Below, in pieces: positions 21,656 to 22,847 of a DNA stretch of 64,000 nt. The first letter of the stretch is position 1; the number at the start of each line of letters is the position of its first letter. The position numbers and the translations under genes are program-made. The DNA is from an uncultured Acinetobacter sp. (GTDB taxonomy: Bacteria; Pseudomonadota; Gammaproteobacteria; Pseudomonadales; Moraxellaceae), in the NCBI RefSeq assembly GCF_947626835.1, contig NZ_CANQTS010000007.1, positions 1 to 64,000 of the forward strand, given 5' to 3'. The notes below the pieces were generated by a model, which was not told the DNA's origin, made no database searches, and was given only the letters and a program-made list of their open reading frames with translations.

Positions 21656-21684
21656 CTTGAAATTTTTTAAGCTAAACCTATATA
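21656..21684 (+). promoter_or_regulatory. Candidate heat-shock (sigma-32) promoter of the ibpA-like gene
   Basis: CTTGAAA, a 13-base gap and ACCTATAT resemble the sigma-32 consensus CTTGAAA / CCCCATNT (full -35, 6 of 8 at -10). The same bases can also be read as a sigma-70 pair (TTGAAA, 18-base gap, TATAAA). Transcription would give a leader of about 95 bases. Confidence 0.45.
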
Positions 21685-21689
21685 AAAAA

Positions 21690-21788
21690 TACGCAAACGA
21701 TCTGTTTTGGATGTTGAGCGTCAGGTTGCGAATATTGAATTGCAGCCACTTATTTGTATGACTTTGCTAACCTTAGGAGGTTTTATCA
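21690..21788 (+). promoter_or_regulatory. ROSE-like RNA thermometer in the ibpA-like leader
   Basis: The leader ends in a hairpin at 21760-21783: GACUUUGCU pairs with AGGAGGUU across the loop AACCUU. The anti-Shine-Dalgarno strand is UUGCU with the G unpaired, the hallmark of ROSE elements of small heat-shock genes, and the masked strand is the full ribosome site AGGAGG. At low temperature the site would be closed and on warming it would open. This is seen by hand-folding only. Confidence 0.6.
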
Positions 21789-22235
21789 ATGAGTAACATG
21801 ACTTTAAGCCCATTATTTCGTCGTGGTATTGGCTTTGACCGTTTAAATGATTTCTTCGACTATGCCATGCAAAGCGACACTCCAAATTATCCGCCATATA
21901 ACATCGAAAAACGCGGTGACAATACTTACCGTATTGTGGTGGCAGCCGCAGGCTTTGATCAAGATGAATTGGCCATTCACCTTGAAAATCGCGTGTTAAG
22001 CATTACGGCACAGCCTAAAGCACAAGACCAAGAACAGGTTGAGTTCTTACATAAAGGCATTGCCCGTCGTGCATTTAAACTGTCATTACGTTTGGATGAA
22101 TATATTGAAGTGCAACAAGCCGATTACCAAAATGGTTTGCTGTCAATTGACTTACAACGCATTATCCCTGAAGAAAAGCTACCGCGCCAAATTCCAATTG
22201 GACATCAACTTGAGCAAATTGAAACACAGGCTTAA
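21789..22235 (+). CDS. ibpA: Small heat-shock protein, IbpA-like (Hsp20)
   Basis: ATP-independent holdase that coats denatured proteins for later refolding by DnaK/ClpB. Its 148 residues have the IbpA-type start FRRGIGFDRLNDFFDYAM, the alpha-crystallin domain (about 35-125; YPPYNIEKRGDNTYRIVVAAAGFDQDELAIHLENRVLSI...FKLSLRLDEYIEVQQADYQNGLLSIDLQRIIPEE) and a C-terminal IPI motif (RQIPIGHQ) used for oligomer contacts. It is a single gene, flanked by a candidate heat-shock promoter with a ROSE-like leader and by a strong terminator. Confidence 0.94.
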   Translation: MSNMTLSPLFRRGIGFDRLNDFFDYAMQSDTPNYPPYNIEKRGDNTYRIVVAAAGFDQDELAIHLENRVLSITAQPKAQDQEQVEFLHKGIARRAFKLSLRLDEYIEVQQADYQNGLLSIDLQRIIPEEKLPRQIPIGHQLEQIETQA

Positions 22236-22260
22236 TATTCTTGCCGTAGAATAAGGCATA

Positions 22261-22290
22261 AAAAAAGCGCTGCAACTGCAGCGCTTTTTG
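22261..22290. terminator. Bidirectional terminator, ibpA-like / infC
   Basis: AAAAAGCGCTGCA-AC-TGCAGCGCTTTTT between the convergent ends of the small heat-shock gene and infC. Confidence 0.9.
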
Positions 22291-22298
22291 ATGGGTGA

Positions 22299-22847
22299 TT
22301 ACTTTTTCTTTTTCGGTCCAAGTAACATACCCATTTGACGACCTTCCATTTTTGGAGATTGCTCAACAACACCAAAATCAACTACGTCAGCTTCAACTTT
22401 TTGTAATTGCGCTAAACCTAATTGTTGATGGGCCATTTCACGACCACGGAAACGAAGGGTGATTTTCACCTTGTTGCCTTCTTCAAGGAACTTGATGATT
22501 GAACGTAATTTTACGTTGTAATCACCAACATCAGTACCAGGGCGGAGCTTGATTTCTTTCACCTGTACTTGATGTTGTTTTTTCTTCGCTTCTTTTTGCT
22601 TTTGCTTAAGGTCAAACAAATGCTTGTTAAAGTCCATAATTTTACAAACTGGTGGCTCAGCATTGGCAACGATCTCAACCAAGTCAAGATCAACAGCTTC
22701 TGCAGCGCGCACGGCGTCTGCTAAGCTTACAATACCTTTTTGCTCACCATTTTCGTCTACAAGACGAACTTCTTTAGCACGAATTTCATCATTCAAAGCA
22801 GGACGGTTTGACTTACCGCCCTGTTGATTACGGTCAGGCTGTTTAAT
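22299..22847 (-). CDS. infC: Translation initiation factor IF-3, starting at ATT
   Basis: Binds the 30S subunit and checks the start codon-initiator tRNA match. The N-domain has [23 protein letters not shown] and [26 protein letters not shown]; the C-domain has [44 protein letters not shown]. The track starts at an internal TTG (22796), which would remove the basic lead-in. Extending 17 codons upstream gives [21 protein letters not shown], beginning with ATT at 22847. That codon is 8 bases after GGAG, which itself overlaps the last codon and stop of thrS. E. coli infC also starts at AUU and uses it for autoregulation. I therefore annotate 182 residues with ATT as start. Confidence 0.93.

Follow-up and report, generated by a model that had tools for sequence, protein, structure and literature searches.

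The leader of the hsp20 gene in the window, as we call the whole 64,000-nucleotide stretch of Acinetobacter DNA analysed here, very probably ends in a ROSE-type RNA thermometer that acts on a sigma32-transcribed gene, with opening by heat assigned by analogy; we put the probability of this reading at roughly 87%. Matters of observation are the gene, the promoter-like site and a predicted structure that is conserved and confined to hsp20. The features concerned are the following.

21656 to 21683, forward strand: sigma32-like promoter CTTGAAA-N13-ACCTATAT, with two mismatches against CTTGAAA/CCCCATNT
21690 to 21788, forward strand: 5' leader of about 99 nt, its start deduced from the promoter spacing
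21691 to 21721, forward strand: leader hairpin I, predicted in the full-leader fold
21724 to 21747, forward strand: leader hairpin II, GGUUGCGA...UUGCAGCC, 8 pairs, from the fold
21748 to 21794, forward strand: putative ROSE-type terminal hairpin of 19 pairs over the Shine-Dalgarno (SD) sequence and AUG, from the fold, 51 leaders and covariance-model matches
21760 to 21769, forward strand: anti-SD strand GACUUUGCUA with a bulged G at 21766, from sequence, fold and alignment
21775 to 21780, forward strand: SD sequence AGGAGG, read from the sequence 8 nt before the ATG
21789 to 22235, forward strand: hsp20, an ibpA-like small heat-shock gene of 148 amino acids (PF00011, 53.7 bits, E 2.4e-14)

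The product of 21789-22235 is the one PF00011 protein found in the 2.56-Mb genome, and its closest NCBIfam types are IbpB (135 bits) and IbpA (127 bits), both scores lying below the equivalog cut-offs. A promoter-like site similar to that at 21656-21683, with a spacing of about 13 nt, precedes nearly all hsp20 orthologues at about -118 to -145. In the window this site places the putative transcript start near 21690, so that the leader start assumed in the original prediction agrees with the sigma32-like promoter spacing. Downstream, hsp20 converges with infC (IF-3; 22299-22847, reverse strand), and a symmetrical terminator-like hairpin, AAAAAAAGCGCTGCAACTGCAGCGCTTTTT, lies between the two genes at 22260-22290. 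The E. coli infC gene is known to start at AUU; in the window the probable infC start is the ATT at 22847, which TGGAG precedes, and the internal TTG at 22796 is the start that ORF callers would pick.

A ROSE leader would be expected to hold two to four hairpins; in the window leader three are predicted, of which the upstream ones differ from species to species. In the terminal hairpin, GACUUUGCU (21760-21768) is paired with the SD strand AGGAGGUU (21775-21782), giving a core GACUUU-[G]-CUA / UAG-GAGGUU in which the SD sequence is paired throughout and the bulged G21766 lies within UUUGCU opposite AGGAGG. The loop is formed by the four bases ACCU (21770-21773) and not by six as had been proposed, since CUA and UAG also pair. 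Past a one-by-one internal loop the outer stem continues as GUA/UAU (21756-21758 with 21784-21786) and then as ACUUAUU/AAUGAGU (21748-21754 with 21788-21794), so that the original prediction, which was right about the SD pairing, missed ten further pairs that bury the AUG. For the 53-nt end of the leader the predicted structure is ...(((((((.(((.((((((.(((....))))))))).))).)))))))..., at -11.6 kcal/mol. In the full-leader fold the start codon has a probability of being unpaired of about 0 at 37 C, and the mean unpaired probability of the SD sequence rises from 0.05 (25 C) through 0.08 (37 C) to 0.10 (42 C). An alternative hairpin, AACCU-UAGG-AGGUU (21769-21782), is the minimum-energy fold of the isolated hairpin at 48 C; we rejected it as a switch, its loop CCU being absent in many relatives and the hairpin itself being suppressed by the outer stem in the full leader.

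Taken as a single sequence, this structure is mildly unusual, and the case rests on conservation across species. The 53-nt hairpin has a stability z-score of -1.76 against shuffles, 12 of 200 of which are equally or more stable; when the upstream leader is shuffled, 27 of 1000 versions reach the SD opening energy of 8.0 kcal/mol and 75 of 1000 the SD-to-AUG opening energy. UYGCU occurs within 12 nt of the SD sequence in 5.9% of shuffles, and among the 39 gene starts of the window this leader ranks eighth in opening energy. Such weak results would be compatible with chance, since U-rich partners for AGGAGG are easily met in a leader so rich in A+T, yet this explanation is largely refuted, and we consider it exceedingly improbable, because 51 distinct leaders retain the 19-pair architecture while changes in loop length and changes on both sides of pairs are tolerated.

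These leaders come from a set of 65 distinct terminal regions gathered from relatives, and alignment A1 takes in the 51 that belong to the main group of Acinetobacter orthologues. Across them 89.0% of the pair cells of the architecture are formed, compared with 40-57% when the partners are slid and 85.1% when the 3' letters are shuffled (none of 500 shuffles as high). Cells with a double change number 34, as against 13.3 in the shuffles (again 0/500 as high). The number of pairs with any double change in A1 is three, no more than in the shuffles, which is explained by the fact that most pairs hardly vary. The most informative positions are alignment pair 26-36, which closes the upper end of the core (GC 27, UG 9, AU 5, CG 1) and ranks first of 597 column pairs, and alignment pair 12-49, a lower-stem pair (AU 24, UA 17) that ranks third. 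When substitutions are replayed on the gene tree as a null, the two have P = 0.0015 and 0.011, respectively, with E = 0.92 for the best pair across all 597; the covariation among orthologues, which had been put forward as a check on the original prediction, is therefore real but modest, supportive rather than decisive. Run unguided on A1, RNAalifold recovers the six-pair SD/anti-SD helix and nothing more, an outcome for which gaps in the loop and rearranged rows are probably responsible. The central claim of the original prediction, that the leader of an ibpA-like gene masks its SD sequence, stands: the sequence is as it was described, the predicted fold buries the SD sequence and the relatives keep the architecture.

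The bulged G opposite the SD sequence is borne out by the fold, but calling it the "exact hallmark" of ROSE elements was slightly too strong: 42 of the 51 leaders have a G at the bulge, the others a U or A. UYGCU is present in 39 of them. Read by eye, leaders with the SD sequence GAGAAGG or GAGAGAG keep the pairing through U-A/U-G exchange, and one orthologue (L055) could adopt ACUUC-[A]-UUCA/UGAG-GAGGU, which follows this plan but bulges a different base, although its computed fold differs. The cores of L055 and three further orthologues (L056, L059, L087) are eroded or rearranged. Orthologues of the A. terrae type (L056, L059, L080, L107) carry a degenerate core, AAUUAUUUUUAAAUUAAGAGG or AAUUAUUUGCACUCAAGAGG, and a changed SD sequence, which possibly represents a retuned or decaying thermometer. 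In Alkanindiges the orthologues have ACUUUGCUGA...UCAGGAGGU ahead of the start, with the core visible by eye.

A covariance model built from A1 was run on 149 Acinetobacter genomes and matches in 52, at one place each, with E-values from 1.7e-12 to 5.1e-5; many of these 52 genomes had fed the model, so that their match is by construction. The matches are 52-56 nt long, and their 3' ends fall within the first codons of hsp20 loci. More informative is that with this model no second copy was found in any of the 149 genomes, and none in genomes lacking the gene. A single element without an hsp20 match (G136) is no orphan, as unread bases (N) begin just after the gene start. Of these 149 genomes, 55 have an Hsp20 protein by our search, a patchy distribution across the genus that the element tracks. 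When the A1 model was compared under strict filters with 295 genomes of the order, the sole match was the window's own genome, and no other genus was hit. Second hsp20 paralogues of some Acinetobacter (L093, L095, L096, L116) have leaders that lack UYGCU and show other predicted pairings of the SD sequence (in L093, GUUGAUAAAAUCAGGAGG); they are perhaps under different control.

At gathering thresholds Rfam has no match in the window or in 19 relatives, and ROSE_3 (RF02523) reaches its threshold in none of the 149 Acinetobacter genomes. Under loose settings ROSE_3 is the only family that aligns in the leader, at the final hairpin, with 12.1 bits against a threshold of 43, so that the Rfam search proposed along with the original prediction fell short in score and agreed in family and placement. 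At the same place ROSE_3 scores 21.7 bits in A. baylyi and 20.7 bits in Alkanindiges (threshold 43), and it reaches up to 77 bits at Pseudomonas-type loci. ROSE (RF00435) and ROSE_2 (RF01832) give no match at the window leader, with E-values as high as 10 admitted. The assignment to a ROSE-like class is nonetheless sustained by the Hsp20 gene, the sigma32-type promoter, U(U/C)GCU with a bulged G, the position in the final hairpin and the conservation, all of which fit; the element is most likely a lineage-specific thermometer of the ROSE type, in a version proper to the genus that Rfam misses. Our literature search found no paper on an Acinetobacter ROSE element, and a survey published in 2005, which covered such elements in alpha- and gammaproteobacteria, may list one.

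The nearest known system is the ROSE-like element of Pseudomonas ibpA (ROSE_3), for which fusions, 30S-binding experiments and probing have proven thermometer function (PMC3669281) and which shares with the window the type of gene, the sigma32 promoter and the position in the final hairpin. Its core, written ACUU-[G]-CUGA...UCAGGAG or ACUU-[G]-CUGA...UCAGGAGAU, likewise places a bulged G in U(U/C)GCU opposite the SD sequence, and Pseudomonas-type ROSE_3 matches in genomes of the order have this core. The two differ in that the Acinetobacter leader is about 99 nt long with two predicted upstream hairpins, whereas that of Pseudomonas has about 62 nt; the Acinetobacter anti-SD strand contains one more U (ACUUUGCU) and faces AGGAGG instead of AGGAGA; and the AUG, paired by the extended hairpin in Acinetobacter, is predicted to be unpaired in Pseudomonas. 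The ROSE and ROSE_2 elements of rhizobia and enterobacteria also belong to small heat-shock genes and set UYGCU against the SD sequence in the last hairpin, in leaders with several hairpins, as is predicted for the window leader (PMC4166951). FourU (Salmonella agsA) similarly lays a U-rich strand on the SD sequence of a small heat-shock gene; unlike it, the Acinetobacter element has three U followed by the bulged G and CU, with no four consecutive U facing the SD sequence.

By analogy with Pseudomonas and E. coli, we infer that the hairpin melts at physiological temperatures and controls translation. Upon heat shock, sigma32 RNA polymerase would transcribe hsp20 with its leader of about 99 nt. 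At growth temperature the U-rich anti-SD strand would hold the SD sequence in a helix made less stable by the bulged G along with three G-U pairs, and the outer stem would pair the AUG too, so that 30S ribosomes could not load; heating would open the A-U/G-U-rich helix and allow translation to begin. The predicted SD opening energy in the window falls from 10.2 kcal/mol at 25 C to 7.4 at 42 C, a remaining cost at which the energy model does not predict outright melting at 42 C; five Pseudomonas-type leaders treated in the same way open more cheaply, at 2.3-5.1 kcal/mol at 42 C. This remaining cost, together with a sigma32-like promoter that could suffice for heat induction, is what a static attenuator would show, in which the hairpin lowers hsp20 translation constitutively and the heat response comes from transcription alone. 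We judge that explanation unlikely, as the destabilising bulged base and the G-U pairs opposite the SD sequence are conserved and not swapped for stable pairs, and as the core is the same as that of the Pseudomonas thermometer, in which point changes that strengthened it left several constructs with reduced heat induction or none (PMC3669281).

Conservation of the entire hairpin, including parts beyond the SD sequence, would also be expected if the leader served chiefly to bind the Hsp20 protein, the hairpin being a recognition element through which the protein represses its own mRNA. Such autoregulation by IbpA has been reported for the E. coli ibpAB mRNA (Miwa et al. 2021, as cited in PMC8155344). 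The pairing of SD and anti-SD strands with its bulge requires no protein, however, and as the main role of the leader we regard autoregulation as very unlikely, although it could coexist with a thermometer on the same leader.

Beyond the thermometer reading itself, the energies allow a more speculative proposal. At 37 C, opening the SD sequence costs 4.9 kcal/mol in the core by itself and 8.2 once the outer stem is included, as compared with 2.4-5.7 in the five Pseudomonas-type leaders. We tentatively suggest, while considering it rather doubtful, that Acinetobacter and Alkanindiges share a ROSE subclass outside Rfam and that the Acinetobacter version joins the core to a conserved stem over the start codon which nearly doubles the opening cost, so that SD and AUG might open together in two stages with a higher or sharper set point.

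If the thermometer reading holds, the ROSE class would extend to Acinetobacter and Alkanindiges, where curated RNA models have overlooked it. The genus-specific model and the 51 natural variants constitute a resource, in which changes of the bulged G to U or A, the one-by-one mismatch and swapped upper-stem pairs form a natural series on the determinants of opening temperature. In these bacteria hsp20 is probably under double control, by sigma32 and at the level of translation.
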